From positions 8,308,001 through 8,372,000 of the forward strand of contig CM034103.1 in NCBI GenBank assembly GCA_019914945.1: DNA of 64,000 bases. The letters run 5' to 3'. The DNA is from Typha latifolia (lineage: Eukaryota > Streptophyta > Magnoliopsida > Poales > Typhaceae). The notes under the pieces are model-generated. The model saw only the letters and a program-made list of their open reading frames with translations, had not been told where the DNA came from and searched no databases. Shown piece by piece: positions 6,226-60,208 of this stretch (the stretch's first letter is position 1; each line of letters begins with the position of its first letter). The position numbers were made by a program, and so were the translations under genes.

Positions 6226-6441
6226 GCGTTCGAACGGGCCCTGGGGACGTTCGAACGCGGGCTCCAGACAGAGTCCAGTCTGTGATGCAGGCGTTCGAAC
6301 GGCCCCAGCCGCGTTCGAACGCGAGCCAACCCGAGAGCAGCAGTTTCTGCAGGCGTTCGAACGGGGCTTTGGCCGTTCGAACGCCAGTCTGCATTTGCAC
6401 TAGGCGCGTTCGAACGCGCCCCGAGGGGCGCGTTCGAACGC
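6226..6441. repeat. Palindrome array, GCGTTCGAACGC type, in the C1 LTR U3
   Basis: Eight copies of GTTCGAAC occur in 216 bases, grouped as four pairs: near 6228/6249, 6293/6312, 6354/6373 and 6407/6431. Within a pair the spacing is about 19-24 bp; between pairs about 53-65 bp. Exact 12-mers are at 6311-6322, 6406-6417 and 6430-6441. The array ends about 33 bp before the TATA box, which is where an upstream activating region would lie; function is inference. Confidence 0.85.
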
Positions 6442-6473
6442 GACGCGGAAAAAACCCAATTCTGAACCGGGCC

Positions 6474-6481
6474 TATAAATA
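6474..6481 (+). promoter_or_regulatory. TATA box of the C1 LTR promoter
   Basis: TATAAATA lies in a GC-rich context just downstream of the palindrome array. Transcription would be expected to start about 30 bp further on, near 6505-6515, defining the U3/R boundary. Confidence 0.6.
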
Positions 6482-6925
6482 GAAATGTTGTGTTTTAGGG
6501 TTGAGTGTGGGCATTTTGCAAGAGAGAAAAGCTTGTAGGGGAGAGCCACCATTGTTTAGAGAGAGATTAGAGTTGTAATCTCTTTGTATTTGAAGATTTG
6601 CATAGTGGATTGAAGATTGCTCCGCCCGTGGACGTAGGCACATCGCCGAACCACGTAAATCGTGTCTCTCCCTCTTTTCTCTTCATGGTTTGCATTGATT
6701 TGGTGTTCATGTTTGTGATTACCTTGGGTATTTGAAGTTCTCTACAACTAGCATCTTGCATTTGGAGTTCTCACATAGATATTGATATTAACTTTGCTAA
6801 TATTTGTTTTGCCCCAAATTATTGCTATTCCACTTGGATTTGTTTGAGGGTGAAGGGTATTGCTTCCGCTTCCTTCACCCATTTGAGTATTTTGCACAAC
6901 AAATACTTGGAAATTAACTAGACAA

Positions 6926-8130
6926 GTTGGAGGCAGACAAGGCTGAGGCCTTAGTTGTTCCTTTCAGTGAAGAGTAGATTCGAAATGCAGTTTTTTCTAT
7001 GGTAGCAAATAAAGCTCCTGGTGGTCTAAATGGAATGTTGTTGATGGTCCCTTGTCTCCTTATCTTTTTATTTTCGTTGCTGATGGTCTTAATGGAATGT
7101 TGAATAATGCTAGAAAGCATGGTTTGCTCACTGGATTGGGGACTAATGTGTTTGAGAAGGGTGTTATTAACCTCCCATATGCAGATTATACGCTTTTGTT
7201 TCTGAATGCTAATCACAGAGAGGTGATGATCTTGAAATGCTTACTTTATGGCTTTGAAGCTATTTTTGGTCTGAAGATAAACTTTGAGAAGAGTTCCTTG
7301 GTGTATCTTGTAAATAATAAAGAGAAAGGAAATGAATCGGCTAACCTTTTGAATTGTAAAGTAAAGGAACTGCCTACAAAATATTTAGGTTTACCTCTTC
7401 ATGACAGTAAGTTGAAGAAAAAGGACTGGAATCTGGTAATTGAAAAGGAAGAAAAGAGACTTGCAGGTTGGAGGGGTAAACTACTCCCCTTTGGTGGTCG
7501 GATTACTCTAATAAACTCTGTTTGGGTCTGTAAGAAGATTGATAAGTTGAGAAGAGAATTTTTGTGGCATGGAACAGCTGAGACAAAAAAGGTTATGCTT
7601 TAGTTAACTGGAACAGAGTGTACCGCAAAAAAGAATTTGGAGGTATGGGGATTGTCACTCTGCAGGAAATAAATATTTCCTTGTTAGCAAAATGGTGGTG
7701 GCAGTTAACTCTGAGAATCAACAGTGGGCTTCAATTGTAATGCAGCGATATTATAAAAGAGTGAAAGCTCATTCTTTTAAGCTGGTGAATTCCAGCAGAG
7801 TGTCACCATTTTGGAGGGGAGTGATTCAAACAGGTACAATATTCAAAATTAGTTTGAAATGGGAAGTTCATAATGGAAAAAAGATAAAATTTTGGACAAA
7901 TATTTGGGTTGGAGAATGCTCTCTCGCAACTAGGTTCCCTAATTTGTTCAATGTGGTTTGGGATGAGGAGGTCACAGTGCAGGATGTTTGGCCGAGTAGT
8001 GGGATTTAAAATCTGCATTACTGCAGAATGCTTTCTGCGAGTATGATTGACGAGGAGCAGCAAATAAAGAATTTTGTAACTGAATACAGTGCTCTTACCT
8101 AGAGGTTTGAAAATAATGGTATTTTTGTAA
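6926..8130 (+). pseudogene. L1-type LINE reverse transcriptase fragment
   Basis: Non-LTR reverse transcriptase of the plant L1 class. Recognisable pieces are an FSEE..IRNAVFSM..NKAPG start (about 6965-7020), SPYLFIFVADGLN (about 7055), and the active-site strand LPYADYTLLF at 7172-7201, where the expected YADD has become YADY. C-terminal motifs such as KYLGLPL and AGWRGKLLPFGGR (to about 7505) and RVSPFWRGV (about 7797) follow. Much of the palm is deleted between NKAPG and SPYLF, stops occur at 6975-6977, 7601-7603 and 8007-8009, and frames change near 7600 and 7740. Endonuclease and poly(A) tail are absent. It is a dead 5'-truncated fragment squeezed between the C1 LTR and a gypsy element. 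Confidence 0.8.
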
Positions 8131-8142
8131 TTAAATCCCTTT

Positions 8143-9904
8143 AGAGGCTCCTTAAGAAGATTGGGCTCGAGTCGAAACCCACAGAAGGGTTCGATGTGAT
8201 GATTGGAGATGGCACCACATTGCGAGCGGATTTTATTTATGGAGGTGTGGAATTGAAGTTGCAAGGCCAAACTTTCACATTGGATCTATATCCGTTGGCC
8301 TTGCGAGGTGCTGGCATTATTTTGGGGATTCAATGGCTTCGAAACTTGGGGCCCGTGACATTTGACTTTACAAACCTCTCATTGACATTTTGGAGGAATG
8401 TCCAGAGAGTGTTGCTGGATGGAAATCAACAGCTGATTGAACTTCCAAGCGTAGGGGACGCAAGTGAGCTCGTCTCTTTCTCAGCACCCATATTTCCTTG
8501 TTTTCTCAGATCTGCGGAGAGCTAGCGCAGGGGATAGTGAACTAGTCTGACTCATGGAGGAGCTGAGAGAGAACCCATCAAGCCACCTCGAGCATGAGGA
8601 GCGCAACGAGTTGGTACTCGAGCGCGAGCGGATCAAGGTACTCGCAGACGATGAGCTACGGAGACTATTAATGGCACACTTCCATGATACTCCTATAGTA
8701 GGCCATGAAGGGATCTTACGTACCTATAAGCAGCTGGCCCAAAATTGTACATGGACAACGATAAAGTCGAACGTGAAGAAATATGTGCGTGAATGCCAAA
8801 TCTTCTAACGAGTCAAATCGGAGACGCTCAAACCCAGCGTGCTGTTGCAATCACTGCCTATACTGGAGCATATTTGGCAGCATATCTCCATGGACTTCAT
8901 CGAAGGGCTGCCGGAGGTCCGAGGGCAATCGGTGGTGTTTGTTGTGGTGGATAGGCTGAGCAAATATGCTCATTTCATAGCATTATCTCACCTATTTTCA
9001 AAGAAAAAGGTTGCTGAAATTTTTGTTCGGGAAGTGGCGTGCCAGCATGCGATGCCTAGGACGATCGTGTCAAATCGGGATGCAACTTCATCAATGAATT
9101 TTGGTCCGAGTTCTTCAGATTGCAAGGGACTCGAATCAACCTTAGTTCAGCTTATCACCCCGAGACGGATGGCCAAACCGAGGTGGTGAATCGCGAACTT
9201 GAGCAATACTTGCGATGCTTTGTGGCGGACCGACCAAATGATTGGGTCAAATTCCTTCCATGGGCCGAGTGGTCATACAATACCGCTCATCACTCGAACA
9301 TCGCATGACCCCCTATAGACTCGCAGCGGGAGATAGAATCGAGCTCGACTTGGAATTTGTAGATCGAGATGAAACATTGTGATGGCTCAAGATTCACCTA
9401 ACAATAGCCCAAAATTGCATGAAGCAAACTCATGACAATGGCTGGCATGAGCGAGAATTTGAGGTGGATCAATGGGTGTTCGTTCGAGCTCAACCGTACC
9501 GGCAATCCATATTGAGGCCAATTTTGAACCAGAAGTTGGGTTACAAGTACTATGGTTCGTACTGAGTGCTACAATGAATCGATCCAGTAGCTTACCTGTT
9601 GGACCTACCTGAGAGAACTAGGATACATTCAGTCTTTCATGTATCGGCATTGAAGGCCCAGATTAGACCTAACCATGTGGTGGGTTCTGCCTTGCCCAAA
9701 CTAATGGAAGAAGATGGCCCAATTGAACTGGTCCGAGTCTTAGGCTGCAGGAGAAGATGCCATGGATCCAAATTGGAGACCGAAGTGCTGATCGAGTGGC
9801 TTGGCAAACCAACTGACGAGTCTACATGGGAGCTAGAGTAAGATATCATGGATCGCTTCCCAAATTTCAAAACTTGAGGACAAGGTTGCAGAAACGTGGT
9901 GGAT
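8143..9904 (+). pseudogene. Ty3/gypsy chromovirus remnant (G1a): protease C-terminus, integrase, chromodomain; RT/RNase H absent
   Basis: 8143-8390 encodes the C-terminal part of a retropepsin-like protease (FDVMIGDGTTL, then GIQWLRNLGPVTFDF); the DTG active site is cut off. At about 8440-8460 the sequence passes from just after protease (LLDGNQ) straight to the stretch before integrase (ELVSFSAP), so reverse transcriptase and RNase H are missing. Integrase follows at 8554-9308: zinc-finger residues H-H-C are present but the last Cys is lost to a stop at 8806, and the first catalytic Asp is in SMDFIEGLP. The second Asp has changed (VSNRD) and a frameshift follows near 9080; QTEVVNRELEQ carries the last catalytic Glu. 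A chromodomain at about 9735-9870 (LIEWLGKPTDESTWELE) marks it as a chromovirus. The same RT/RH gap is seen in the element at 36213-40612. Confidence 0.82.
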
Positions 9905-10730
9905 TGATACGATTCGGACTTCACCAATGTCATCTCGAGCACTGATACACTTTAGGGGTGTCTTTGTTTCTTTTTTTAATGTTTAATTCTTAAGAAAGTA
10001 AGTTTTCTATAAGTCGCATTCGAATGCGGGTGGAGTGCGTTCGAACGAGGTTGTGAAAGCTTGCATCACGTCTAGAGAGTGTGAATTGTGTGTTCGAACG
10101 CCGCGTTCGAACGCTCTATGAACGCCTACATTGCGTTCGCAAATCTAGACAAGTGGGAAACAAGTGCGTTCGGTCGCCGTTCAAACGCCTGCATCGCGTT
10201 CGCAAATCCAAAGAAGAGCGAACTAGGTGCTTTCGAACGCGGTCGGCAAAAATGTACTGTTTAGGGTTAATTTTGAATTGTTTGGTTAGCCTCTAAAAGA
10301 TGTGGATAGCAACCATAGAGTCATTATTGATGAAGTGTGGCCCTCTCCTCCCCCTTCTTCTAATCTATCCAATACTTGCCCTAACCCTTCCATTAGCTAT
10401 AACCCTTCCACCACCACTTTTCATCGGTGCCACATTATTAATGCCGGTCCACCTCCAACCACCATCATCCTAGGATCTCGTGCCTCCATCCACGGATCCT
10501 GATCAGACCCCCTGACGTTCGTCCACTAATCGGACGATATCTCGAGATCCCCACATCCGATTTGCCTGAAACTTGATTTGTTGGAAAACTGGGGCTACAA
10601 TATAGCCAAATTTCACATCGATCCGACGACGGCATCTTTCAGGATCTATTTACAAAGTTCCGTGTCAGATCTAGTCCAGATCTGAGAATTGGAAGAGATC
10701 GAACCTTAGCCAAAAGGGGAGATCGTATCA
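9905..10730 (+). repeat. 3' LTR of G1a
   Basis: It begins TGATACGATTCGGACTTCACC just after GTGGTGGAT (polypurine-like) and ends GAGATCGTATCA, so the ends are inverted TGATACGAT...ATCGTATCA. It is 826 bp. Palindromes of the GTTCGAAC kind lie at 10020-10240, then a decayed TATA-like CTCTAAAAG near 10291. The family signature CTCGTGCCTCCATCCACGGATC follows near 10480. The next element's integrase end begins immediately at 10731. Confidence 0.85.
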
Positions 10731-11310
10731 GGCTGAGGTTGATATGGAATTGATGGATTGCGATGCTATTCTCAGGAGGTTGTCGGTGCATCTAAGAGCG
10801 GCCAAGAATTGGATGAAGCAAATGAATGATCAACATCATCGTGAGGAGTTTAGTGTGGGCAATATGGTGTTTGTACGAGTCCAACCCAATCGTCAAGTCA
10901 TCTTGCACACTATTCAAAACCAAAAATTGACATTCAAATTTTTTGGTCCATTTTGAGTTTGTGAGTGCATTGGACTAGTCGCCTACAAGCTTGAGCTACC
11001 AGAGGGGACCAGATACACCTAGTGTTCCATGTTTCATTACTCAAAGTGAGGATTGCACCAGATCAAATGGCAGGGTCGGTTCTACCTGAACCCGAGGAGG
11101 ATTTGCATCAGGTGGAATCGATACGAGTACTAGCATAATGAAGGAGGCGACATAGCTCGAGGTTAGAGACTAAGATCTTGGTTGAATGTTTGGGCAAACA
11201 ATCTGACGAGTCGTCATGGGAAATCGAAGTCTATGATCGTCGATCAATTCCTCAACTTCACATCTTGAGAGCAAGGTGGGGGAAGCGAGGTGGGCTAATG
11301 ATTCAGCTAG
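10731..11310 (+). pseudogene. Ty3/gypsy (G2-like) integrase C-terminus and chromodomain fragment
   Basis: Reads like 56110-56660 of the better-preserved G2 copy: EVDMELMDCDAILRRL (about 10739), KNWMKQMNDQHHREEFSVG, then VFVRVQPNRQVIL and FGPF ending at a stop at 10954-10956. After frameshifts, remnants of YKLELPEGT (about 10985) and of the chromodomain (SDESSWEIEV, about 11205) follow, then a polypurine tract near 11270. The 5' part of this pol is missing; the G1a element abuts it exactly at its LTR end, consistent with insertion or rearrangement there. Confidence 0.65.
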
Positions 11311-12755
11311 ATTTCTAGTAGTCCCATTTGAACGCCAGGAAGTCGCGTCCGAATGCGTCATTCGAACGCTTGCATACGTTCGCAAATACAGAGATTAGAG
11401 CGTTCAAACACCTGCACACATTCGCAAAGACAGAGAACAAATTTGGATGTCGTCTCCTTCCTCCTTCAATCTGACCATGCCCCCTTGACTCTCTAGGATC
11501 AATCCACCCTCTTCCCCTTCGTCCTTAATGCTCTATCCCACCATCACTGCCATTGTCTCCCCCAATACCTAACCATTATTTCCTCTACCATTAATCACAT
11601 CCATCACACCAACACCTGACCAACATTCAGTATTTCCCTAATAACTTCTGACCTACACATACGATCGACATGATTTCAGTTTTGTTAGATCCCTTACTTT
11701 AAGAGGAACAAACTTTTAAAGTTTAAGATCTATCAGATCGCTAGATCATCCATAGTTCTCCATGAAAATTTTGCCTTAGATCGGAATTGGGACTGATTTT
11801 GAGTTTTTTTTGCAACATCATTAAGCCGGATCGTAAAAGGCATTCTCGGCCTCTTCGGATTCACTCTCAACAATGTGGGAATCTTCGGCACTCACTGATT
11901 CATGAGAGAGATGAGTAAAGTGAACCTAGCTTCTACTAAGCGTAGCTAGTCCCAACGGACCTAATAGACAGACCACTTACTTTGAGGAATCTATTGTCAG
12001 TCCATACCCAGTACATAACTCGGTGATTAAGATCTCGAAACACAAACTCCACTGGTGTCATGTTACGGTTCAGCTTGATATAGCTTGGACTTGACTAAAC
12101 TGCCTTGAAAGTAATGATTTTTATTTTTAAAGAATAAGACATTCTAGCTTGGGCGTTCGAATGCTTGAAGGGCCTGTTCAAAGCCCTGTTCGAATGCCTG
12201 GATAGTGTTCGCAAAATTTAAGAGGCAATTTTGGCCATACACCTGGCTCACGAGGTCGTTCAAACACCCCATGACAAGGATGCATTATTTAGGGTTATTT
12301 TTTATTTGTTTTGCTTGTCAGCCTCTAAATATGTGGAAGGCAACCTTATTGAGTCTATCAATGAAAAATTAAAGTTTTTACTTCCTAACTCCGTCTCTTC
12401 CTCCCAAGGCGTCCATCATCGGACGACATCTTCATTTTCCTTCAATTCTACTAAGCCCCCTTGCTTTATCCCCACTATCACTGCCATTGGCACCTTCCAT
12501 TGCCCTAACCATTATTTCATCTTCCACTAATCATGACCATTCCACCACCGTCTAACTATAGGTTAGTATTTCTCTCATAACTTCTGATCTATGTGATCAT
12601 TCTAGTTGTGTTGAATTCCTTACTTCAAGACGAACAAACCATCAAATTCTAAGATCTTTTGGTAGCTAGATCACTCGTAGTTGTTCTCAAAACTTTCGCC
12701 CAAAATCAAAATCAAGTTGATTGATTGTATCTCTCAATAGAAGCCCCACTAACCT
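11311..12755 (+). repeat. Degenerate gypsy LTR sequence, probably two LTRs in series; no gene
   Basis: No coding frame with known motifs. Palindrome-derived copies (GTTCGAA, GTCCGAATGC, GTTCAAAC) cluster at about 11325-11430 and 12150-12265. Each is followed by a C/T-rich leader (CTCCTTCCTCCTTCAATC near 11455; CCGTCTCTTCCTCC near 12393) and by an AACTTCTGA(C/T)CTA stretch (about 11643 and 12580), so the same LTR type seems present twice. 11830-12110 matches neither and I do not recognise it. The second copy runs to a PBS-like TGGTATCAAAGA at 12756. Confidence 0.5.
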
Positions 12756-13330
12756 TGGTATCAAAGATAGGCTGACCATGGAGGCACCATTAATGGTGAT
12801 GACTAGAGCTATGGCTGCTAGAAGGAAAATGGAAGATCCAAAATGCATCGAACAAAGGTGCAAAAATGGAAACACCAAGGTGTGAAGCATGAAGAACGGA
12901 TCTTCTTTTGGAAAGTCTACTGACCACAGAAAGGTTGGTGAAGGCTAGTGATGAAAAGAAGGAAGACCACCATGCCAATTACGAAGTGATTCACAGTTTG
13001 ATGTTTGAACAAGGCAATACCTCAACACGTGACATCAACCATCAATTTCAGCTAGCCTTATCGTGGGCCACATCATCCACAATAATGATTTGCTCCTTCC
13101 ACACCCCATGGCACGAGAGACCATGGCTACTCCTAGGCCGATGCAACTGGAGGAGATCCCTAGGGCACGAATACAAACTTTACATGGAGATGATGAGGAG
13201 TGGCTGGAGTACGACGAGATGGAACACCGGCGTAATTTCATGCAACGGAGGAGAGATGCATACTGACAACAACCACACCCTCCCGTGGCTTGGCCGAGTC
13301 AAGGCTATGATCCCAATAATGACTTCGGGT
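12756..13330 (+). pseudogene. PBS-like site and gypsy gag remnant
   Basis: TGGTATCAAAGA (12756-12767) is a decayed tRNA-iMet primer site, followed by an ATG at 12778 opening a short basic start (MTRAMAARRKMED within it), as in other gag openings in this window. A later stretch, frame 13063-13263, reads RPMQLEEIPRARIQTL and EEWLEYDEMEHRRNFMQRRR, an acidic then basic gag spacer. Stops and frame changes are frequent, the capsid domain is not recognisable, and the sequence jumps to reverse transcriptase near 13330. Confidence 0.5.
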
Positions 13331-15276: not shown

Positions 15277-16226
15277 TGATACGATTCGGACTTCACCGAC
15301 GTCGTCTCGAGCATGGATTCACTTTAAGAGTGTTTTTATTTCATGTTTTAGTGTTTAATTTCCATTGAAATAAGTTTTCTGTAAGTCGTGTTCGAACGCG
15401 GGTGGAGTGAGTTCGAACGCGGTTTGTGAACGGGGTTGTGAACGTGGTGAAGAGAATGTACTGTGCGTTCGAACGCGGTGCGTTTGAACGCACTGTGAAC
15501 GCCTGCATCGCGTTCGCAAATACCGACAGGCGCATTCGATTGCGCGTTCGAACGCCTGCATCGCGTTCGGAAATCCAGAAGAGCGAACTCGGTGCGTTCG
15601 AACGCGGTCGGGCGAGTTCGAACGCGGTCGACGAAAATTGGTTTTTAGGGCTAATTTGAGTTGTTGGTTAGCCTATAAAAGGATGTGGTAGGCAACCAAA
15701 TTGATTATTGATTATTGAGAATGAGTTTTGCCTTGCCTCCTTCGTCTTCTTCGCTCCCGTTCTCTCAATCCCCGGCGACGCCGCTTCTAAGCTCCCTCGT
15801 CCGGCTAATCACCCTAGTCCCTTAGGGGTGGCCCTCTTCTCCCCTTTCGTCCAATCTATCCCACACTTGCCCTAATCCTTCCATCAACCACAACCCTTCC
15901 ACCATCACTTTGCACCGGTGCCACCACATTAACGCCGGTCCTCCACCAACCATCATTACCTAGGATCTCGTGCCTCCATCCACGAATCCAAAACAGAGCA
16001 TTCTGATGTTCGTCCACTAATCGGACGGTATCTCGAGATCCACAACTCCGATTCGCCTGAAACTTGATTTGTTGGAAAGCTCTTTTCTAGGGCGACAACA
16101 TATCAAATTTCACATCGATTCACAGCGGAATATTTTGGGATCTTATTTCAAAGTTCCGTGCCAGATCTAGTCCAGATCAAGAATTGGAAGAGATCGACCC
16201 TTTACCAAAAAGGCGTGATCGTATAA
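15277..16226 (+). repeat. G1 solo LTR with target site duplication TCTCT
   Basis: It starts TGATACGATTCGGACTTCACC and ends GTGATCGTATAA (last CA decayed to AA); 950 bp. TCTCT flanks it on both sides (15272-15276 and 16227-16231), a perfect 5-bp target duplication, and no gag or pol adjoins it, so it is a solo LTR made by recombination between the two LTRs of a former insertion. Palindromes cluster at 15390-15635 and the TATA box TATAAAA is at 15674-15680, followed by the C/T-rich leader. This is the best copy for reading the G1 promoter layout. Confidence 0.88.
15674..15680 (+). promoter_or_regulatory. TATA box of the G1 LTR
   Basis: GCCTATAAAAGG, 38 bp after the last palindrome copy. The same GTTAGCCTATAAAAG context is found on the minus strand in the young G1 LTRs (about 36800 and 40460), so it is the conserved family promoter. 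Confidence 0.65.
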
Positions 16227-16980: not shown

Positions 16981-16994
16981 ATTAATAGAGGTCT

Positions 16995-17086: not shown

Positions 17087-17758
17087 TGATAAAATATGGA
17101 ACCAAAGATGAGCTATGCAATAATTCCTTCAAGATCTAAATATATTATAGGAATCAGTCTGCGCAACTATGGGAAAATATTTGTCAAATATTATCCTTTA
17201 GTCAGAAAATTTCGAACCCAATTGGGTTAGATCTGTTACGTCCTGATCTACAACTTTTGATTGACGCCCTTCGCAGATTCTAAATGTAGCAGGGACCAAA
17301 ACATGAAATAACGTGGGTGATGATGGTGGTGATGGGTGAAGTGGATGTTAGGGTTATAAATGGATATGGAAGTGAAGGTGGATGGCGGATGTGATTAATA
17401 ATCCACTTTCATAATAAAGTTGGCTACTATCCACATATTTATAGAGGCTAGCCAATAAGTCCTAAAATAATATGAAATCCTAATTGTAGAGGATTCTCTT
17501 CGATCGCATTCAAATGCGTCCGATCGCGTTCCAACGCACCAAAAGATGTTCTCTGTATGTGCGAACGTGGGCGTTGGAACTTGCTCGATCGCGTTCAAAT
17601 GCACAATGTGTGTTCTCTGTATTTACAAACTTGATGCAGGCATTCGCAAGGGCGTTCGAACATGATCCCTCATGCGTTCAAATGCGACTTACATGAATTT
17701 TATTTTAATAAAAATAAACTCCTAATGCAATAAGAAAATATCCTAACTAAGTGTATCA
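17087..17758 (-). repeat. G2-type LTR (minus strand)
   Basis: On the minus strand it starts TGATACACTTAGTTAGGAT at 17758 and ends TTTTATCA at 17087; 672 bp. Palindromes with decay (GATCGCGTTCAAATGC and similar) lie at 17505-17690, with a promoter-like region on their 17400 side (TATAAATATGTGGAT on the minus strand near 17443). It is the 5' LTR of the gag fragment at 16471-16980. Confidence 0.75.
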
Positions 17759-17809
17759 CACATCCACAATCCACCTTCATCTCCACACCCATCCATAACC
17801 CTAACATTC

Positions 17810-19546: not shown

Positions 19547-19572
19547 ATATCTTTTGGTACCATATCCCATCA

Positions 19573-19712: not shown

Positions 19713-19728
19713 AATTGTGTACAAAATC

Positions 19729-39833: not shown

Positions 39834-39858
39834 TGGAAGCGCTTGTCCGAGGAACGGT

Positions 39859-47316: not shown

Positions 47317-48336
47317 TGTTAGGTTTTTATTTGTTTGCAATTGTGTACAAAATATACTAAGTATATTTTTTCATGTATATGAGCTTTACACAAGTCTAAA
47401 ATATCTATGTTTTGAAGAATTGCAAGATTATTGGAGAAAAGCCGTCGAGTTCACACCGCGTTCATAAACGCGTTCGAACGCGGTGCGTTCACAAACGAGT
47501 TCGAACGCGAAATCTGCGTTCACACAGACAGAGAGTCGCGTTCACAAACGCGTTCGAACGCAACCTGAAGAATTCAAGCTGTCGCGTTCGAACGCACTTG
47601 AGCCCGTTCGAACGCACCAACAAAGTTTAAGAATATTCGACTTTCGTGAGTACGGATAAGACTCGGATTTGACTTTATCTTGAAGATCGTGAGTACGGAT
47701 AAGATTTGAATTTGGCTCTATCTTGAAGATCGTGAGTACGGATAAGATTTGGATTTGGCTCTATCTTGTACTTTTGTGAGTACGGATAAGATTAGGATTT
47801 GGCTCTATCTTATACTTTCGTGAGTACGGATAAGATTGGGATTTGGCTCTATCTTGGAGATGATATATAAGGATTGTGAAACCCTATCTCTAGGGTGGTT
47901 GAAGAAGCATTATTGAAGGAGACTTCTTGAGGCTACATCGGTTCTTCAACTAACAAGGGTTCCACTGATCTACAAATCTTAATTTTTCGTCTTAAGGGCT
48001 ATCTAGACGAAAGATCAATCTCGAGGGTTACTGAGATTGGACTTCAATCACGAGAAGCGGTGAATCGTGGGTTCTAGCGAGCAAGACTGAGAGGAACAAA
48101 GTCGTTTGGATCGATAGGTTGTTTTGAGAGTCAGTCTTGTAACTGCTACTATTCTAGTGATTGGTTTTGATCCGAGTTTGGATCCGTGGTTTTTTCCCGT
48201 TTGGGTTTTTCCACGTTAAAATCTTGGCGTTCATCTCTACTTTCGTTCTTAATATTTCTACGGACTTTTACTTAAGCGAACGAGTGATATCATTGCCTAG
48301 TATTTAGATACATACTTGTATCTAGGGATTTTTTCA
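47317..48336 (+). repeat. 5' LTR of C2c
   Basis: U3 with palindromes at 47453-47615, then five tandem copies of a 38-46-bp unit around GTGAGTACGGATAAGATT (47647-47850), then TATATAAGG (about 47867), the expected TATA box. R/U5 runs to 48336. It differs from the 3' LTR by scattered substitutions, one tandem unit and a 34-bp inverted insertion present only in the 3' LTR. Confidence 0.9.
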
Positions 48337-48338
48337 AT

Positions 48339-48350: not shown

Positions 48351-48385
48351 AGGTTCTCTCACCCTTTGAGAGAGATCAGATAGGC

Positions 48386-50242: not shown

Positions 50243-51934
50243 TTTTCTTTTTGTTTTGGTTTGTTGAGTTTTTTTTCGTTTCTTTTTAGGTTTTATTTTA
50301 CTCTGAAATTTTCTTTGCTTTTAGTTTCAGATTTGTCGAGAGTTTTTTTTTGCTAAAAAAAAAAAAAAAGGAAAAAAATTGATGCACTCCTAGATTCAAT
50401 AATATACTCTTGACATAAAAATATGATTTTTCTCTTGATTATGAGTTATTATAGTCAATTTTGTCATCTTGTAGTATATTGTTTCAATTTTGATTTTGTC
50501 ACTCCCTCGACTTCTATAATAATAAAAAGTTTAATGCACTCATAACGTATGTGTATTATTATGTGAGCATGATATCATGAATATTTTTTTAAATAGCTCA
50601 CTATTAACTTTGATTTGCACAGTTTGACCTCATGCTTAGTCATAAAAAATATGTTCATAAAAGATCAATGAAAAGGGCTACAATGAGTTAGTGTGAAAGC
50701 CGTCTTGTTTCGAGTCCAGTTTGACTCAGTACATTATATGGAAATTCAAAAAAAAAATATATATTTGGATTTCTTCTTGCACTTTGTTTGATTTGTATTA
50801 CAAGAAAAGGGCTACCTACTCATGTGTGAAAGTCTTCATTGCACCTATATTGGTTTATGTATAAAAAATAATACAGGAAAATTCCTGTTATGTTATGGTG
50901 AATAAGTCGAAAAGTGAAAAATTTCAATACTAAGTAGGTTTGACTACTGTGTTGCATCATTGTTTATATAGAAAAGTTTGTTTAAAAAGATTGGTTCATG
51001 TTATCTATGCTCATCTTGCATATGCATATCGTTATGATCAATCAAGATTAATTTAATTTTGAGTGATGCATTAGAATTGATTATAATATGCTCTTGATGA
51101 TTTGATTGATCTGTGCATGACTTTTTCATATGATTGTCATATTCTATGTCTTGAATCTATTTTGAATTTTCTAGAAGTGCATCTCCAAAAAGATTTTTGA
51201 TTTGTTTTCGTTTAAATTTTAAAAAAATCCAAATCCTCAAGATCTTCATCTTTTTCATCAAAATTTTCACTTCAAACCCTTTTAAAGTCTTTTGGCCGAA
51301 ACTTCAAGATTTTCTTCACTTTTTGCGAGGTATGATCATTCATCAATTTTCTTATTTTTTATTCAATTAAGTCTCTTGATCTTGATTGATTTCATGCGGT
51401 TTCGAGTTTTGATCATGTTAAAGTTAATATCTTGATGTTTCTTGTGCGATTGAATGTGATATCTTAGCGTTTTCAAGTGAAAGATGGGTTTCAATTAGGG
51501 CATTCATGGTTTCTTCATCGTCAGTTCCCTCCGAGTTCCTAGTCTTTGGCATTTGTGTCAAAAAGGGGGAGAGTGTCTAGTGTGTGTCGTGTGTGGTGCG
51601 AGTTTAAAGTTTTAGAGTTTACGTGTGTAGGGGGGGAGCAAGGCAATAGTGGGAGTTTATTAGAGTCTTTCTGTCTTTCTAATCTTGCTTATAACTTTGC
51701 CTGGAGATATTGTGAACTTTGTCTGTTTAAGTACTTTTGAACTTATGCTCCATTGATAACTTGTGGTTGGATTGTTTATTCATTTCAAGTTATTTTCACT
51801 TGATCTTGGATTGATATATGTTTATTTACAGGGATTGATGTGCAAAATATTCTAGTCTTGTTGATTGCTCATTTGAAGTCTATGTAATATCTTGTAACCT
51901 AGGTGTTTTGTCACAAATTGCCAAAGGGGGAGAT
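50243..51934 (+). mobile_element. Non-coding 3' tail and polypurine tract of C2c
   Basis: T-rich start, an A-run at about 50356, then 1.5 kb without a conserved frame. An envelope-like gene, found in some Sireviruses, is not recognisable. AAAGGGGGAGA at about 51923-51933 is the polypurine tract; a similar sequence AAAAGGGGGAGAG lies at 51560-51572, an extra polypurine tract of the kind reported for Sireviruses. Confidence 0.65.
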
Positions 51935-52944
51935 TGTTAGGTTTTTATTTGTTGGCAATTGTGTACAAAATATACTAAGTATATTTTTTCATGTATATGA
52001 GCTTTACACAAGTCTAGAATATCTCTATTTTGAAGAATTGCAAGATTATTGGAGAAAAGCCGTCGAGTTCACACCGCGTTCACAAACGCGTTCGAACGCG
52101 GTGCGTTCACAAACGAGTTCGAACGCGAAATCTGTGTTCACACAGACAGAGAGCCGCGTTCACAAACGCGTTCGAACGCAACCTGAAGAATTCAAGCTGT
52201 CGCATTCGAACACACTCGAGCCCGTTCGAATGCGACAGCTTGAATTCTTCAGGTTGCGTTCGAACGCACCAACAAAGTTTAAGAATATTGGACTTTCGTG
52301 AGTACGAATAAGACTCGGATTTGGCTCTATCTTGAAGATCGTGAGTACGGATAAGATTTGGATTTGGCTCTATCTTGTACTTTTGTGAGTACGGATAAGA
52401 TTAGGATTTGACTCTATCTTGTACTTTCGTGAGTACGGATAAGATTGGGATTTGGCTCTATCTTGGAGATGATATATAAGGATTGTGAAACCCTATCTCT
52501 AGGGTGGTTGAAGAAGCATTATTGAAGGAGACTTCTTGAGGCTACATCGGTTCTTCAACTAACAAGGTTCCACTGATCTACAAATCTTAATTTTTCGTCT
52601 TAAGGGCTATCTAGACGAAAGATCAATCTCGAGGGTTACTGAGATTGGACTTCAATCACGAGAAGCGGTGAATCGTGGGTTCTAGCGAGCAAGACTGAGA
52701 GGAACAAAGTTGTTTGGATCGATGGGTTGTTTTGAGAGTCAGTCTTGTAACTGCTACTATTCTAGTGATTGGTTTTGATCCGAGTTTGGATCCGTGGTTT
52801 TTTCCCGTTTGGGTTTTTCCACATTAAAATCTTGGCGTTCATCTCTACTTTCGTTCTTAATATTTCTACGGACTTTTACTTAAGCGAACGAGTGATATCA
52901 TTGGCTAGTATTTAGATACATACTTGTGTTTAGGGATTTTTTCA
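51935..52944 (+). repeat. 3' LTR of C2c with a 44-nt inverted duplication
   Basis: As the 5' LTR, but with four rather than five GTGAGTACGGATAAGATT units (52297-52470). It also has a perfect inverted repeat of 44 nt (52168-52211 and 52224-52267, 12-nt loop) bounded at each arm by the GTTCGAAC palindrome. TATATAAGG is at about 52471. Confidence 0.9.
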
Positions 52945-53396
52945 CAATTTTATCAAATTTCGTTGGTGCGTTCGAACGCGGCCCGGGTGCGTTCGAACGG
53001 CATTTCTTGAACTCAGGTGCGTTCGAACGGGCCTGAGTGCGTTCGAATGCGACAACTTAAATTCTTCAGGTTGCGTTCGAACGCGTTTATGAACGCAGCT
53101 CTCGGTCTATGTGAACGCAGTACCCGCGTTCGAACGCGTTTGTGAACGCGGCTCTCTGTTTGTGTGAACGCAGTGCCCGCGTTCGAATGCGTTTGTGAAC
53201 GCGGCTCTCTGTCTGTGTGAATGCAAATTCCGCGTTCGAACGCATTTGTGAACGCGGTGTGAACTCGACGGCTTTTCTCCAATAATCTTGCAATTCTTAA
53301 GACCAGAGATATTCTAGACTTGTGTAAAGCTCATATACATGAAAAAATATACTTAGAATATTTTGTACACAATTGCCAACAAATAAAAACCTAACA
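52945..53396 (-). repeat. C2b 5' LTR, outer part, with 53-bp tandem repeats
   Basis: Minus strand: starts TGTTAGGTTTTTATTTG at 53396 and runs to the CAATT insertion site of C2c. 53073-53265 holds nearly four copies of a 53-bp unit consisting of the GCGTTCGAACGC palindrome, a GTGAACGC half-site and a GGCTCTCTGT-like spacer; C2c LTRs have about two. More palindromes at 52965-53050. Confidence 0.88.
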
Positions 53397-54770
53397 CATT
53401 GTGTGCATATGCTCATCGATTCGTTGAGTACACACAACTTTCTAGACGAGAAGTTAGTTAGAAAATTGGGTTTGGATGCCGAGCCGACCACGGGATTTGA
53501 CGTTGCTATTGGAGACGGCACGAAGCTTAGGGTGCAGAGCTTGTGTCGGCAGGTCAGTATACGGGTGCAAGAACACGACATCATTGTGGGCTTATATCTG
53601 TTGGCGTTACGAGGAGCGGACATTATCCTTGGTGATTAGTGGTTACAAAGTTTGGGACCCGTCACATTTGATTTCCGAAGCATGTGGATGAAATATAATC
53701 AAGGAAACAAAGATGTGCAACTTGATGGTGTTTGGACTTCGTCGATTCTTGCAATGCAGCGTATGGTGGGGCTACTTGGTGCGTATGATTTGGCCTATCT
53801 TCTTCAATTAGGACCAGCTGGAGATGAACCTCAAACGAGTTCAGGTATTATAATTGAATTGTTCAATTTATTAGATAACTTTTTTGGACTGTTTGAGGAG
53901 CCGCAAGAGTTGCCACCGAGGAGAGCGGCGGACCATCGTATAGAGATTGTATCCGGCGCTGCACCGACGAACGTGAGGCCATATCGGTCTCCACATGTGC
54001 AAAAACAAGTTATCTCAAAGATAGTAGCCGAGATGTTGGAGCATGGTCTCATACAACCAAGTCATAGCTCATACTCATCCCCCGTGCTTTTGGTGTGAAA
54101 AAGGATGGGACATAGCGTTTTTGTGTCGACTATCGAGCACTAAATGCTATTATCGTCAAGAACTGGTATCCTATTCCGGTTATCGAGGAGTTGCTGGATG
54201 AGGTTGTAGGAGCGACTATATTTAGTAAGCTTGACTTAAGGGTCGGGTATCATCAAATTAGAGTTCACCCAGCGGATGTGCATAAAACTATATTTTGGAC
54301 TCCGGATGGGCATTACGGGTTCCGAGTGATGCCTTTTGATCTCACCAATGCTCCAGCTACCTTTCAAGGCCTCATGAATGATATATTTCGACCTCTTTTG
54401 CAAAGGTATGTCTTGGTATTTTTTGACGATATTGTGGTGTATAACAAGATTGAATTGGAGCAATAGCGACATTTGGAGAACGTGCTGAATTTGTTTGAGC
54501 AAAACCAATTGAAGATCAAGAAGTCCAAGTGCCTATGGGGAGTACCAAAGGTGGAGTATTTAGGCCGCATCATTTCAACGGATGGTGTAGCGGCGGATTC
54601 TCAAAAGATTGCATGTATGACCGCTTGGCCTATTCCTACTACTACCACCGAATTGAGAGGATTTTTGGGGCTGACTGGTTATTATCGTCAATTCATCGAC
54701 GAATATAGCAAGATCACTGCTCCTCTCACTTCTTTGTTGAAGAAGGACTCTTTTAGATGACAGATGAAGC
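53397..54770 (+). pseudogene. G2d Ty3/gypsy protease and reverse transcriptase
   Basis: Protease from STHNFLDEKLVRKLGLDAEPTTGFDVAIGDGTKL (about 53424), the DTG itself altered (DSLST) next to the C2b insertion point, to WLQSLGPVTFDF. RT follows: NLLDNFFGLFEEPQELPP (about 53865), NVRPYRSPHVQKQVI, a frameshift at about 54095, then [49 protein letters not shown] and the catalytic [13 protein letters not shown] (about 54412). Thumb: NQLKIKKSKCLWGVPKVEYLG to LTGYYRQFIDEYSKITAPLTSLL. A stop at 54466 (TAG for CAG) and a frameshift at 54757 break it. This is the best-preserved G2 pol in the window. Confidence 0.85.
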
Positions 54771-55376: not shown

Positions 55377-56069
55377 GTGCCCACAAATAACAGTTGCGGC
55401 CAGAAATTGTTGGAGCATTTCCACCACACTCCAGAGGCTGGTTATGAGGGTGTCTTGAGGACTTATAGGAGGATATCTCAGAATTGTACGTGGCTAGGAT
55501 TGAGATGGGATGTGAGGAGTTTTATCCGTGCTTGCGAAGTCTATCAAAGGGTTAAAGCAACCACCTTAAAACCGGCCGAATTACTACAACCTTTACCTAT
55601 ACCGGATCGTGTTTGAGAGGACATTTCAATGGACTTCATATAGGGTCTTCCACTGGTACATGGTTATTCTGTTATCTTTGTGGTGGTTGACAGATTGAGC
55701 AAGTATGCGCACTTTTCGACATTGTCACATCCATTTTCAGTTAAGATGGTGGCAGAAATTTTTGTTAGAGATATTGCTCGATTATATCGCATGCCAAGCA
55801 CGATTGTCTCAGATCGTGATTGTGTATTTATGAGCGACTTTTGGATTGAGTTTTTCAGATTGCAGGGCACTCGATTAAACGTCAGTTCGGCCTACCATCC
55901 ACAAACGGATGGCGAAATCGAGATGGCTAATCGAGGCAATGAGCAGTATTTGAGGTGCTTTGTTGGAGAGATGCCGAGACGATGGTTGGAGTTTTTACCG
56001 TGGGCGGAGTGGTCTTATAACACCGCCTACCATAGTAGCATTGGCATGACTCTATTTGAGGTGGTGTAA
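55377..56069 (+). pseudogene. G2d integrase
   Basis: Zinc finger LLEHFHHTPEAGYEGVLRTYRR: the second His is Tyr here and the last Cys (CEVYQR) is also Tyr. Core: stops at 55614 (EDISMDFI preceded by TGA for TGG) and 55641. The first catalytic Asp is in SMDFI, the second in IVSDRDCVFMSDF (about 55802) and the Glu in DGEIEMANRGNEQYLRCF (about 55910). It ends at NTAYHSSIGMTLFEVV and a stop. The catalytic triad residues can all be seen, although the frame is broken. Confidence 0.85.
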
Positions 56070-56685
56070 GGACGCACGGCTCCGACGTTACGCGCCTATG
56101 ATCCAATGGCATCGGCAGATTGGACGGAGGTGAACTTAGCATTGATGGATAGAGACACCACATTGAGGAGGTTGCGCGCTCATCTTAAACTTGCTCAAAA
56201 TTGCAAGAAGCAAGTTTATGATCGTAGCCATAGGGAGCAGGAGTTCGACATCGGCAGTTGGGTGTTTGTGATGGTGCAACCGTATTGTCAGGTGACCTTA
56301 CGTCCAATGCGAAACTAAAAGTTAGCACATCGCTACTTTGGTCCGTTTTGGGTGTTGGAGCGTATTGGTCCGGTTGCATATCGTTTGGAGCTGCCGAAGG
56401 GGTCGAGAGTGCACCCTGTCTTTCATATTTTATTGTTGAGAGAGTGCATTGGAGATCATGAGATTGTAGGATCGGTTCTACCGGAACCATTAGAGATAGA
56501 TCGTAGAGCCAGTTCGAGTACTTGCTAGAAGCCGACGAAGACATGGTACTAGATTGGAGATGGAGATTCTAGTTGAGTGGCTTGGCAAGCCATCTAATGA
56601 GGCAACATGGGAGTTGGAGACTGATATCTTAGAGCGTTTTCCTGACTTTTCATCTTGAGGGCAAGGTGGGAGAAGCGTTGTGAGC
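56070..56685 (+). pseudogene. G2d integrase C-terminus, chromodomain and polypurine tract
   Basis: TLRAYDPMASADWTEVNLALMDRDTTLRRLRAHL, VYDRSHREQEFDIGSWVFVMVQP, then after a stop at 56318 RYFGPFWVLERIGPVAYRLELPKGSRVHPVFH. The chromodomain, in frames changing at about 56525 and 56560, reads EILVEWLGKPSNEATWELETDILERFPDF. The polypurine tract GCAAGGTGGGAGAAGCG (56661-56677) precedes the LTR. Confidence 0.8.
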
Positions 56686-57583
56686 TAATACACTTAGTTA
56701 GAATCTTTTCTTATTGCATTAGGTGTTTATTTTTATTAAAATAAAATTCCTATAGGTCGCGTTCGAACGTAGGTGGAGTCGCGTTCGAACGCCGTTGTGA
56801 ATACCTTGTGAATGCCCGCGTTCAAATGCCTTATGAATGCCTTGTGAACGCCTTATGAATGCCTTATGAACGCCCGTGTTCGAACGCCTTATGAATGCCT
56901 TGTGAATGCCTGCGTTCAAACGCCTGTGTCGCATTCGTGAATCCAGAGAAGGGGCTTTTTGAGTGCGTTCGAACGTGATCGGGTGCGTTCAAACGTGATC
57001 AATGGGAATCCTATAGAATTAGGGTTTCATATTATTTTAGGACTTGTTGGCTAGCCGCTATAAGTATGTAGATGGAAACCAACTTCAGAAGGCTATTGGA
57101 TTATTGATTTCTTGCCTCCTATCTTCTCTCTAGACTTCTCCCTCCTCCTTCTTCACCATCCTTCCACATCTACTATTGGGCAAGGTTTCTCTTTGCTTCT
57201 AATCTCCCTCGACTATCGAGCCACCCCTCCTCTTTGGGATCTCGACCACTTCGTTCCCTTCGTCTACTACCCTTAATCATTTCCACAATCCACCATTATC
57301 TCCATACCCATCCATAACCCTAACATCCACTCCACCCGTCACCACCACCATCACCCACGTTATTCTATATTTTTTCCATGCTACAGCTTGAATCGGCAAA
57401 GGGCGTAAATGCGAAAGTTGTAGATAGGAAGTTATGGATCCAACCCAATTGGTTTCATAATTTTCTGACTACCGGAGAATATCTGACAAATATTTTCCCA
57501 CGGTTGCACGGACTGCTTCTTGCAATAAATTCAGGTCTTAAGGAATTGTTTCGTAGCCGATCTTTTGATTCTAGAGCCTATCA
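56686..57583 (+). repeat. 3' LTR of G2d
   Basis: Starts TAATACACTTAGTTAG (TGATACAC in sister copies) and ends AGCCTATCA; 898 bp. Palindromes and half-sites at 56757-57000, including short GAATGCCTTGTGAA units (56800-56910), then the promoter region GCTATAAGTATGTAGATGG near 57058, leader and U5. Confidence 0.82.
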
Positions 57584-57769
57584 ATTGGTATCAGAGCCTA
57601 TCAGGTCTTAAGGAATTATTTCCCACGGTTGCGCGGACTGCTTCTTGCAATAAATTCAAGTCTTAAGGAATTGTTCCGTAGCCGATCTTTTGATTCCAAA
57701 GCCTATTAATTGGTATCAGAGCCTATCAATTAGATATCAAAGCCTATCAATTGGTATCAGAGCCTTCAG
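57584..57769 (+). repeat. Serial U5-end + PBS duplications after the G2d LTR
   Basis: TGGTATCAGAGCC at 57586-57598 directly follows the LTR. 57601-57711 repeats the last 80-odd bases of the LTR with a few changes (AGGAATTGTTCCGTAGCCGAT again at about 57667), followed by TGGTATCAGAGCC at about 57712. Then a decayed copy (AGATATCAAAGCC, about 57732) and a further TGGTATCAGAGCC (about 57753). No G2 gag follows; G1 sequence begins at about 57770. Confidence 0.82.
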
Positions 57770-57953
57770 GTCTCATAATAGATGTCTCGATTATACCGTT
57801 CACCCGTAAAGTCCTTGGTGCGGCTGTCCCGAAATAGGCGTGGAGGGAGATCTCGATCATCATGTCCTCCATAGGTCGCTCCTCAGCTACTCCTCCTTGA
57901 TGTCCAGCCACACCCCCATCTTCATCTACAATCTCATCCTCAGCCTCCTCAAA
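57770..57953 (-). pseudogene. G1d protease N-terminal fragment
   Basis: Minus strand, continuing from gag: EISLHAYFGTAAPRTLRVNGIIETSI, which matches the region just before the DTG of the G1 protease (38330-38370). The element is cut here, before the active site, at the junction with the G2d PBS array. Confidence 0.65.
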
Positions 57954-59307
57954 TCAGTCGATTAGCATCACCGATCCCATTGGTTTAGCACATTGATGTC
58001 CGGGTACAAACTTCTCATCACAACGAAAGCATAGGCCTTTGGCTCTTCGTTCCTCCACTTGAGCAAGTGTGAGTGCTCGTCCTAGACCTCTAGGTGCGTA
58101 CTTCACATCTTGGGATGGCTTCAGGGGTGCTTGAGGAGGCACCATTGCAGCAACGGTTCTTGGTACTCCAGTAACATTTCCTGCCGCTATAGTTGGTAGA
58201 GCTTGATTGCGGCTTCCCTGGCTCATCCAATTCTATTTCAGGTGTAACTTCATGGCCCTATGTTTTTCTTCCATGAGCACCGGATCTTCGAAGGCCTCTT
58301 TAAAGTTGTAGGCCTTAAAGCCCTCACGTCGACTTGTATGTCCCCCCACAGCCCGGAGATGAAGGTGCTACGAAGTTGCTGATCCATCCATGGGGGTTAA
58401 CATCGGCTACTTATCCTCTCAAACTCTTCTTGGTATACTCCAACCGTGGTCTTTTGCACCGTCTTTGAAAGGAGAGCATCGAAGTCTTCATACCCCGACG
58501 CTCCAAATCGCCGCATGATATCGGCACAAAATTTAGCCTAAATTTTGGTAGCCTCATTGGCATTGGCTGCTCGAAACCAATGAAGCGCCACTTCTTCAAG
58601 GTGGAAGCTCGCAAGTGTCACCTTGTATTCTTCCGTCGTACCCTAGTATGCGAAGAATTGGTCCAACCTATACAACCAATCGATCAGATCGTTACCTTTA
58701 AACTTGGCGAATTTGAGATGCACGATTTGCCCACGGATGTCGTTGTCTCAATTCGGACCATGTCCAAGTCCTTGCCTAACTAACGAAGGATGTACCATGA
58801 ATGTTTGATGATCTCTCCTTCAATTTTGATTAACTCACCGTAGTTCGGGTTCGTATTGCCCCGCCACGAATCTAGATCTCCAAGGTGATCTCCATAATGG
58901 TTCGCTCGTCGGATGGCTTCACCTACAACTGGGCCTGGTGGAACCATCCTTGCTTGCCTCTGCCCGTAGGATGGTGGCAGCAGCGGCTCTTTTGGTTGCA
59001 AATTTTGAACCGGTGGTGACGGGTTCATGGGAGTGGACTCGCATCGTGGGTTTGATGGTGCGTTCCTGTTTGCCATGGCTTCCCTTGTCGCCTGTAATTC
59101 CTGCATCATCTCCATCATCATCTAGTTGTTGATGGTCATTTGTTCGGAAAGAGACCCCTACACGGCTTGAACACTAGGTTCTTTCGTATTCCGATTAGAT
59201 CAGGCGGTTCCACGGGTGGAAGTCCCCGCAATCGTTTCCCCCTCCTCTATTAGGAGAACCTCTTCTTCATCATCTCACCGTGCAGCCATGGATCTAGTTG
59301 TCATCAT
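57954..59307 (-). pseudogene. G1d gag (minus strand)
   Basis: From the ATG near 59307 (TTRSMAAR then a stop), through the proline-rich leader (frame 59121-58783: QPKEPLLPPSYGQRQARMVPPGP) and the capsid in broken frames (about 58740-58390), to SQGSRNQALPTIAAGN and the zinc knuckle CFRCDEKFVPGHQC (58044-58003). In-frame with KPMGSVMLID, then a stop at about 57954. It aligns along its length with G1c gag and shows, at 58235-58250, the undisturbed frame that G1c has lost. Confidence 0.78.
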
Positions 59308-59347
59308 AGGAAGCGCGTGTCCGAGGAACCTGGCTCTGATACCAGCT

Positions 59348-60208
59348 TGATACAATCTCCCCTTTTTGGGCCAAGGCTCGATCTATTTTGATTTTTAGAT
59401 CTGGACAGGATCTGATATGGAACTTTGAAAATTGATCCCAAAAGATGCCGACGTCGGATCGACATGAGATTTTGATATGTTGTAGCCTCGGAAAAGAGCT
59501 TTCCAACAAATTATTTTAGGTGAATCGGATGTAGGGATCTTGAGATATCGTCCGATTAGTGGACGAACATCACAGGGGTCTGTCTTAGGATCCGTGGATG
59601 GAGGCACGAGATCCTAGATGATTGTGGATAGTGGTGGACCGGCATTAATGGGGTGGCACCGATGAATAAGTGGTGGTGGAAGGGTTATGGGTGATGGAAA
59701 GGTTTGGACAAGTGATGGATAGATTAGAAGAAGGGGGAGGAGTGGGCCGCTGCCCCTAAGGGACTAGGGTAATTGGTCAGTCGAGGGAGGCTAGAAGCAG
59801 CGTCGTCGGGGATCGAGAGAACGGGAGCAAAGAAGACGAAGGAGATAAGGCAAAAACTCAATTTATCAATAATGACTCCATGGTTGCCATCCACACCTTT
59901 AGAGGCTAACCAACAATTCAAAAATAATCCTAAACAGTGCATTTTTGCCGACTGCGTTCGAACGCACTTGATCGTGTTCGAACGCACATATTTCTCACTT
60001 CTCTGGATTTGCGAACACGATGCAGGTGTTCACAGGTGCATTCGAATGCACAATTCACACTCTCTGGATATGCGAACCTGATGTAGGCATTCGAACGCAA
60101 CATACAAAAAATTTATTTTTTTAGAATTAAACTTTAAAATAAAAGACAAATATATCCCTAAAGTGTATCCATGCTCGAGACGACATCGGTGAAGTCCGAA
60201 TCATATGA
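59348..60208 (-). repeat. 5' LTR of G1d
   Basis: Minus strand: TCATATGATTCGGACTTCACC at 60208 (usual start TGATACGATTCGG, first bases decayed) to GGGGAGATTGTATCA at 59348; 861 bp. PBS TGGTATCAGAGCC at 59332-59344. Palindromes at 59955-60100. It adjoins LARD internal sequence at 60209, so G1d probably inserted into, or recombined with, the right LARD. Confidence 0.8.

Follow-up and report, generated by a model that had tools for sequence, protein, structure and literature searches.

The DNA analysed here is a 64,000-nucleotide stretch of the Typha latifolia genome (assembly GCA_019914945.1, contig CM034103.1, positions 8,308,001 to 8,372,000 of the forward strand), which we call the window. 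It holds many long terminal repeats (LTRs) of Copia and Gypsy retrotransposons, and most of those described below carry arrays of a CpG-rich palindrome, the 12-mer GCGTTCGAACGC with the 8-base core GTTCGAAC. A first-pass annotation of the window had noticed this palindrome in LTRs of both superfamilies. We distinguish the Copia families C1 and C2, the Gypsy families G1 and G2, and three further LTR-like types, T3 to T5. Their copies in the window are the following.

6171-6900, plus strand: C1 LTR (classic Copia, non-autonomous) from its start to past U3; array 6226-6441 with 8 exact cores, TATAAATAG at 6474, TATA, polypurine tract (PPT) and attachment site AAGGTGGAG-AAT-TGTTA.
9905-10730, plus strand: G1 Gypsy 3' LTR with TGATACG...CGTATCA ends, coming after Gypsy pol DNA (8143-9900); array 10020-10240.
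11280-12760, plus strand: T4 and T5, two old LTR-like segments; decayed arrays 11325-11430 and 12150-12265.
15277-16225 (end approximate), plus strand: G1 LTR; array 15390-15635, TATAAAAGG at 15674.
17301-17760, minus strand: G2 LTR fragment; array 17505-17690, mostly decayed.
17851-19362, minus strand: two segments derived from G1 LTRs; arrays 18420-18510 (decayed) and 19085-19250.
19721-19979, plus strand: start of a C2 LTR, joined to C2 gag DNA; array 19869-19976.
26801-27761, plus strand: G1 LTR; array 26910-27165.
29940-30775 (about), minus strand: G2 LTR; array 30495-30700.
36212-36950, minus strand: young Gypsy (G1-like) LTR in which an 18-bp GGATAAGATT array takes the place of the palindromes; paired with the LTR at 39874-40612.
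40960-41700, plus strand: third LTR-like type, T3, a candidate whose class is not proven; array 40983-41200.
47316-48336, plus strand: C2 (Sirevirus Copia) 5' LTR; array 47453-47615, 43-bp GGATAAGATT repeats 47639-47856, TATATAAGG at 47864, CA/ATTGGTATCAGAGC junction.
51934-52944, plus strand: C2 3' LTR, 94.2% identical to the 5' LTR; array 52077-52280, GGATAAGATT repeats 52288-52467, TATATAAGG at 52473, PPT AGGGGGAG-AT/TG.
52946-53405, minus strand: truncated LTR of C2 type; array 52965-53265 in 53-bp units.
56684-57595 (about), plus strand: G2 3' LTR (Gypsy by inference); array 56757-57000, then repeats of TGGTATCAGAGC, which resembles a primer-binding site (PBS).
59348-60215 (about), minus strand: G1 LTR; array 59954-60100.

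Site counts in this study refer to exact or one-mismatch cores. The 12-mer occurs in 28 exact copies in the window, compared to none in 100 dinucleotide shuffles. The core occurs in 50 exact copies and outnumbers every other 8-base palindrome in the window by a wide margin (runner-up, n = 13); when one mismatch was allowed, 107 cores were found versus 21 expected. A search of the whole genome (214 Mb in 62 contigs) recovered GCGTTCGAACGC 14,944 times exactly and 37,692 times with at most one mismatch, compared to 0 and 109 for the reversed string, confirming that the clustering is real and beyond chance. An acyltransferase gene of the host in this genome shows 97% identity to one from Typha angustifolia. 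The 17 intervals named by the first-pass annotation (3,194 bp in total, with a 2-base tolerance) hold all 28 of the 12-mers and 49 of the 50 exact cores. Four of them (11325-11430, 12150-12265, 17505-17690, and 18420-18510) lack an exact 12-mer; their sites are decayed, apart from a single exact core in one of the four. Enrichment over other DNA was borne out on a small sample: 20 random 10-kb stretches of the contig that we number C1 (not to be confused with the family) contained five exact copies of GCGTTCGAACGC, all inside one stretch, L014, which has a Gypsy protease and integrase.

We then characterized 23 loci chosen in order along contig C1 for holding GCGTTCGAACGC (L001, L003, L004, and L026 to L045). 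All but one belong to dispersed repeat families whose similarity extends past the array (22/23), and the remaining one, L001, is a solo LTR with a TATTA duplication. Sixteen of the 22 match the C1, C2, or G2 LTR families, L003, L031, and L032 distantly, while the other six (L027, L028, L029, L036, L038, and L045) are LTR-like families not tied to coding DNA. The latter six, like T3 to T5, are repeats of LTR form that we infer to be Gypsy. For the measurements below we used 38 arrays, namely those of 21 of the contig C1 loci (without L026 and L040), 16 window copies, and L025. The families are unequally sampled in this set, and the decayed window segment 14900-15270 was excluded from it.

C2 is a Sirevirus Copia family, as judged from its PPT, attachment site, and PBS junction. 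The PPT AGGGGGAG followed by AT/TG is exact at 51564 and 51925, with near copies between, and the junction reads CA/ATTGGTATCAGAGC, as in the CA/ATTGG-PBS arrangement of Sireviruses. Furthermore, C2 carries a Copia gag, and a related copy a Copia integrase (Pfam). The last 67 bases of the C2 LTR at 47316-48336, inspected by eye, showed no C-rich stretch of the kind that serves Sireviruses as an integrase signal; this signal near the LTR end has been described for 17 Sireviruses and is not universal (PMC2829016; here and below, papers cited by PMC number were consulted in part, and what we say of them refers to those parts). C1 is a classic Copia family distinct from C2, and its relative L066 harbors Retrotran_gag_2, Pol_BBD, and zf-CCHC domains between two array-bearing LTRs (Pfam).

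G1 is a Gypsy family. Both LTRs of its full-length element L025 bear the array, and in L014 the domains RVP_2, Integrase_H2C2, and rve lie ahead of the array, as protease and integrase do upstream of a Gypsy/Ty3 3' LTR (Pfam); Retrotrans_gag was found in a related palindrome-free Gypsy copy (window 38847-39890; Pfam). Reverse transcriptase (RT) and RNaseH motifs were not seen in L025. In this family, the protease leads directly to the integrase (L025 1300-4720; L014 1455-3323), a YLDD at 7470 of L014 lying outside this part. Because the protease adjoins the integrase and no RT motif was seen in L025, the amplified G1 family probably moves with the enzyme of a partner. G2 is probably also Gypsy, judging from its part order and from a 71% match between the DNA upstream of its 3' LTR (55677-55963) and G1 integrase DNA; an open reading frame in the same upstream stretch (53643-54095) had no Pfam match. 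The proposal that one module is common to Copia and Gypsy LTRs is thus upheld with the Sirevirus C2, the classic Copia C1, and the Gypsy G1 as carriers typed by Pfam.

Several further observations concern these families. A G1 Gypsy element lies inside the palindrome array of a C2 Sirevirus at L025 (283-5770), with a 5-bp duplication, TTCAC. At L003 (875-1560), an array-bearing remnant of a C2-type LTR sits between two copies of a gene that by eye is glycosyltransferase-like. The sequence TGGTATCAGAGC or a close form of it, corresponding to the PBS, is repeated in tandem beside several Gypsy LTRs (29819-29943, 39858-39966, 57590-57765, and L025 1235-1335). As judged by eye from 40 scored copies each, the best-scoring G1 and C2 copies crowd one stretch per contig (for example, contig C9, 5.5-7.3 Mb), and C1 copies are more widely spread.

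The palindromes within an array follow a spacing rule that is new compared with the first-pass annotation. Distances were taken from core centre to core centre, allowing one mismatch in the 38 arrays and using exact cores genome-wide. In the 38 arrays, 64 of the 192 distances between neighbouring cores fell at 19 to 22 bp, 53 of these being 20 or 21 bp, with none at 16 to 18 bp and two at 23 to 26 bp. After similar spacers of the same length had been merged within each lineage, 25 of the 85 distances of up to 70 bp remained in the 19- to 22-bp class (6/16 in C1, 8/23 in C2, and 11/46 in Gypsy and Gypsy-like arrays), for which an even spread over 12 to 70 bp gives, under a crude model, a binomial probability near 2e-10. 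Genome-wide, where single families contribute many copies to the counts, there were 354 pairs at 15 to 18 bp, 5,907 at 19 to 22 bp, 84 at 23 to 26 bp, and 831 at 30 to 33 bp. Among the matches listed, the pairs at 15 to 18 bp were nearly all 15 bp apart and of one form, and those at 30 to 33 bp were mostly one C2 form. Sixty-seven of the 78 plus-strand pairs listed (of the 5,907) were 20 or 21 bp apart, and these 78 pairs harbored 20 distinct spacers differing by more than 40%. Two turns of B-DNA measure about 21 bp. The excess at 19 to 22 bp, together with the many unrelated spacers, makes the unit look like a two-turn, same-face protein-binding pair.

The arrays lie ahead of the promoter, as the first-pass annotation had noted wherever a TATA box was visible. 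A TATA-like match was found within 350 bp downstream of 24 of the 38 arrays, measured from the start of the last site, in a scan restricted to the downstream side. A few of these matches probably do not represent TATA boxes, and the other 14 arrays had no TATA-like match within this distance. The distance was 36 to 56 bp for the three C1 arrays, 53 to 54 bp for two G1 arrays, 40 to 84 bp for five C2 relatives, and 211 to 317 bp for four C2 copies. The CpG observed/expected ratio was 1.80 in the arrays (1.58 without the exact palindromes) compared to 0.57 in the 300 bp downstream. Among the 86 single-mismatch 12-mers of the 38 arrays, 41 were CpG transitions, so that the earlier description of the variants as mostly CpG decay went too far. 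Another 30 were changes in the two end letters, which suggests that the working core is nearer CGTTCGAACG.

To compare the spacers between lineages, we kept palindromes and half-sites fixed and shuffled the spacers 100 times, using 5 of 10 C2 arrays, 16 of 25 Gypsy or Gypsy-like arrays, and 2 of 3 C1 arrays. None of the shuffles reached the similarity between C2 and Gypsy arrays (mean score, 36.7; highest null, 31.3), and the Gypsy-Gypsy positive control was likewise above shuffles. C1 spacers were not above shuffles, the C1-Gypsy score being reached by 15 and the C1-C2 score by 20 of the 100, and homologous spacers were therefore rejected for C1. A first run with 60 shuffles gave the same picture in its means. 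Its best C2-Gypsy alignment, between L003 (a C2-lineage LTR) and L030 (Gypsy), covered 81 columns with a score of 63 and is not decisive alone, the largest shuffle maximum being 65.

The spacer sequence that C2 and Gypsy arrays share includes a second module, GCGTTCRCAnAnACAGAGA, made of a GCGTTC half-site and RCAnAnACAGAGA and often found in the same 19- to 20-bp register with one half-site. It occurs 1,686 times exactly in the genome (868 + 818; reversed control, 0), with the form CGCACATACAGAGA seen in Gypsy arrays and CACACAGACAGAGA in Copia C2 arrays. When the module tails were randomised, the C2-Gypsy similarity was still above shuffles (34.7 versus 30.9). Because C2 and Gypsy arrays share spacers including this module, they have probably exchanged U3 sequence and are probably in part of common descent. 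C1 shares only the palindrome and the spacing, a pattern expected if the site was recruited separately or exchanged very long ago. The earlier statement that flanks do not match between superfamilies hence holds for C1 and fails for C2 and Gypsy. Of the two explanations offered with it, exchange would fit C2 and Gypsy, and recruitment, or an exchange too old to see, would fit C1. One recent chain of recombination with flanks that match, which the first-pass annotation had set as a refuting condition, does not explain C1, whose spacers are not above shuffles.

The young Gypsy LTRs at 36212-36950 and 39874-40612, which are 99.5% alike, carry no palindrome and have an 18-bp GGATAAGATT repeat instead, located in the window copy just before TATAAAAG; the claim that the palindrome clusters in almost every LTR was thus too broad. 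Forty LTR copies (scored of 3,292 candidates and including the two of the window) were 96 to 100% identical to 36212-36950 over 738 to 739 of its 739 bases, array included. Tandem GGATAAGATT is present both in this young Gypsy (36814-36903 and 40476-40565) and in the Sirevirus C2, where, in both window LTRs, the 43-bp repeat lies between the palindrome array and the TATA-like match. Two U3 array motifs are therefore common to Copia and Gypsy, and of these the second is known for Gypsy from this subfamily only. Genome-wide counts of GGATAAGATTnGG, a pattern that fits the C2 form and not the Gypsy form, were 335 + 357 versus 7 + 9.

We consider it likely that the palindrome clusters are U3 arrays, upstream activating or anti-silencing, for one putative sequence-specific dimeric DNA-binding protein and that they are common to several LTR lineages of Typha. 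Such a protein fits best because of the palindromic core and its dimer-like symmetry, the two-turn pairing, the place before the promoter, and the independence from spacer sequence. The palindrome would be the predicted binding site of one dimer, and two palindromes 20 to 21 bp apart would place two dimers on the same helix face, where they could bind cooperatively. Arrays bound in this way might raise transcription from the downstream TATA box or keep the LTR open against silencing. Gypsy and C2 arrays would have exchanged U3 sequence, while C1 would have recruited the site separately or by very old exchange. The protein, its cooperativity, the activation, and the route of exchange are read from anatomy, that is, from the sites, spacing, carriers, position, and spacer sharing observed here. 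Conservation points in the same direction: between related LTRs (ordered pairs), core 8-mers were kept more often than spacer 8-mers (27/69 versus 338/3,023 in G2, 23/46 versus 281/1,652 in G1, 74/141 versus 555/4,082 in C2, 16/16 versus 64/225 in C1, and 2/6 versus 14/222 in L029/L038), which is support and not proof, as repeated cores may attract alignment and inflate their own conservation. Retention of downstream LTR 8-mers lay between that of core and spacer for G2, G1, C2, and L029/L038 and below that of spacers for C1.

Several points weigh against a common binding protein. The palindrome is replaceable and not essential, because the young Gypsy subfamily, which has lost the array, does without it. 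Besides the possible alignment effect just mentioned and the repeated counting of the same families in the genome-wide pairs, retention is likewise high for CpG-bearing C1 spacer 8-mers (32/49), and outside the 19- to 22-bp class the tendency toward multiples of 10.5 bp is weak (Rayleigh p ~0.015, nominal). GC-rich palindromes could also act via hairpins. In addition, no plant factor for GTTCGAAC was found in the open-licence literature, in which the string was checked in small part; other occurrences in that part were primers and gene sequences. Two leads to a candidate may be mentioned. CPP/TSO1/LIN54 proteins prefer TTYGAA, which fits the palindrome centre. Dimeric bZIP proteins are the other lead and no more than that, since in microarray data the 8-mer GTTCGAAC was bound by one such protein from the oomycete Phytophthora infestans (PMC11267843). 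We more tentatively propose, at somewhat less than even confidence, a shared regulon in which one protein, encoded by the host or by a transposon, would recognise the paired palindromes, set two helical turns apart, in the U3 regions of Sirevirus, classic Copia, and Gypsy elements, the arrays having passed between superfamilies and being now swapped for GGATAAGATT in young Gypsy.

The same arrays could be explained in other ways. A transposon-encoded protein similar to VANC might bind them and remove methylation from all array carriers. Indeed, VANC targets are tandem, fast-changing arrays in non-coding transposon DNA (PMC5735166), and the arrays described here are CpG dense in several families. 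However, the VANC21 motif is reported to be rare outside one family (PMC5735166), whereas the palindrome is common to several lineages, and no regulatory DNA-binding gene was recognised in 10 protein pieces scanned, which cover a small part of each element (one C2 piece had a match to SSB of 21.5 bits, below the cutoff of 26). We regard such anti-silencing as unlikely. Slightly less likely still is that adjacent palindromes fold into hairpins in RNA or single-stranded DNA and feed small-RNA silencing or some stage of the element cycle, a proposal made for palindromic regions of maize Sirevirus LTRs. Any two copies of the palindrome are complementary, and small RNAs are in excess on palindrome clusters of maize Sireviruses (PMC10760457, PMC5311732). 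Shorter loops should nevertheless fold at least as well, yet the 15- to 18-bp spacing is 17 times and the 23- to 26-bp spacing 70 times rarer. Moreover, in dimers with both arms changed, a complementary change accompanies 10 of the 60 variant positions and is present in 8 of the 64 dimers, which is no strong compensation, a statement made without a computed null.

Exchange without function, in which recombination or template switching would have spread the array and recent copying alone would have kept it, draws on the spacers shared by C2 and Gypsy, on the 81-column alignment of L003 with L030, and on the G1 element nested in the C2 array of L025. Against it, C1 spacers do not exceed shuffles versus C2 or Gypsy, the 19- to 22-bp rule holds across unrelated spacers in three lineages, and cores outlast spacers, and we find this account improbable. 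Two more readings we hardly credit at all. Pol III B-box or TFIIIC sites would draw on the likeness of GTTCGA to the B-box core, which the first-pass annotation had pointed out. This fails, since the consensus GWTCRANNC has 6 matches, counting both strands, in arrays that contain 131 exact cores, and 24 of the 38 arrays are followed by a TATA-like match. Equally remote is that elements insert into the palindromes and that arrays thus gather elements. The G1 insertion with its TTCAC duplication and a reported weak preference of LTR elements for palindromes (PMC6911290) would favor this; none of the 150-bp flanks upstream of 20 G1 LTRs contained array motifs, some of the 20 being 3' LTRs whose upstream DNA is the element itself, and targeted integration into arrays was rejected on this count.

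Descriptions of LTR control regions usually treat one family at a time, and palindromic boxes have been presented as a Sirevirus trait. Should the dimeric-protein reading hold, the roughly 15,000 exact copies in Copia and Gypsy elements would make unlinked parasites dependent on a single protein, through which much of the mobile DNA in a genome could be activated or silenced together. The spacing rule offers a binding geometry open to direct testing and a way to search for this factor. Among known systems, the U3 enhancer repeats of Tnt1, Tto1, and ONSEN are said to be family-specific tandem transcription factor sites upstream of the TATA box. The arrays resemble them in having tandem sites before a TATA box and differ in that one site and one spacing serve two superfamilies. 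They share with the YAGTATTAY arrays of VANC21 (PMC5735166) dense, fast-evolving tandem sites in non-coding transposon DNA. Unlike here, VANC21 involves a DNA transposon with its own encoded protein, mainly one family, and a non-palindromic motif.

The closest likeness is to the RM boxes of Sirevirus LTRs, which are palindromic, form CpG islands, lie upstream of the TATA box, mostly have a CGG-CCG core, and were called Sirevirus-specific, with no common factor identified in the parts of the paper used (Bousios et al. 2010, PMC2829016). As in RM boxes, many palindromic copies occupy the upstream LTR half before the TATA box within divergent surrounding sequence. The clustered palindromic motif upstream of TATA is found in the C2 LTRs at 47316 and 51934 and in others (14 of the 38 arrays having no TATA-like match). 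The arrays are also CpG-island-like as judged from their observed/expected ratio. These two C2 LTRs hold 3 exact 12-mers each and more when decayed and half sites are counted, the figure for RM boxes being at least 8 copies per element. However, the core is CGTTCGAACG and not CGG-CCG, which is also missing from the published RM Tnd-1 (PMC2829016). The palindrome is not confined to Sireviruses, being present in the Gypsy G1 and the classic Copia C1, and the two-turn pairing is absent from the parts of PMC2829016 consulted. The maize palindromes of a 2016 study, as described in papers citing it, likewise cluster in LTR regulatory regions and are linked to small RNAs (PMC5311732, PMC10760457); they differ in being CACCGGACnnnGTCCGGTG, in occurring in Copia elements and Helitrons (PMC10760457), and in coming with small-RNA data. 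In the open-licence literature, the matches listed, judged by title or start of abstract, reported no palindrome common to Copia and Gypsy, and those listed for GCGTTCGAACGC were, by title, not about transposons. Overall, the arrays are RM-box-like but have another core and wider carriers, and the pattern is real, strong, and partly new.

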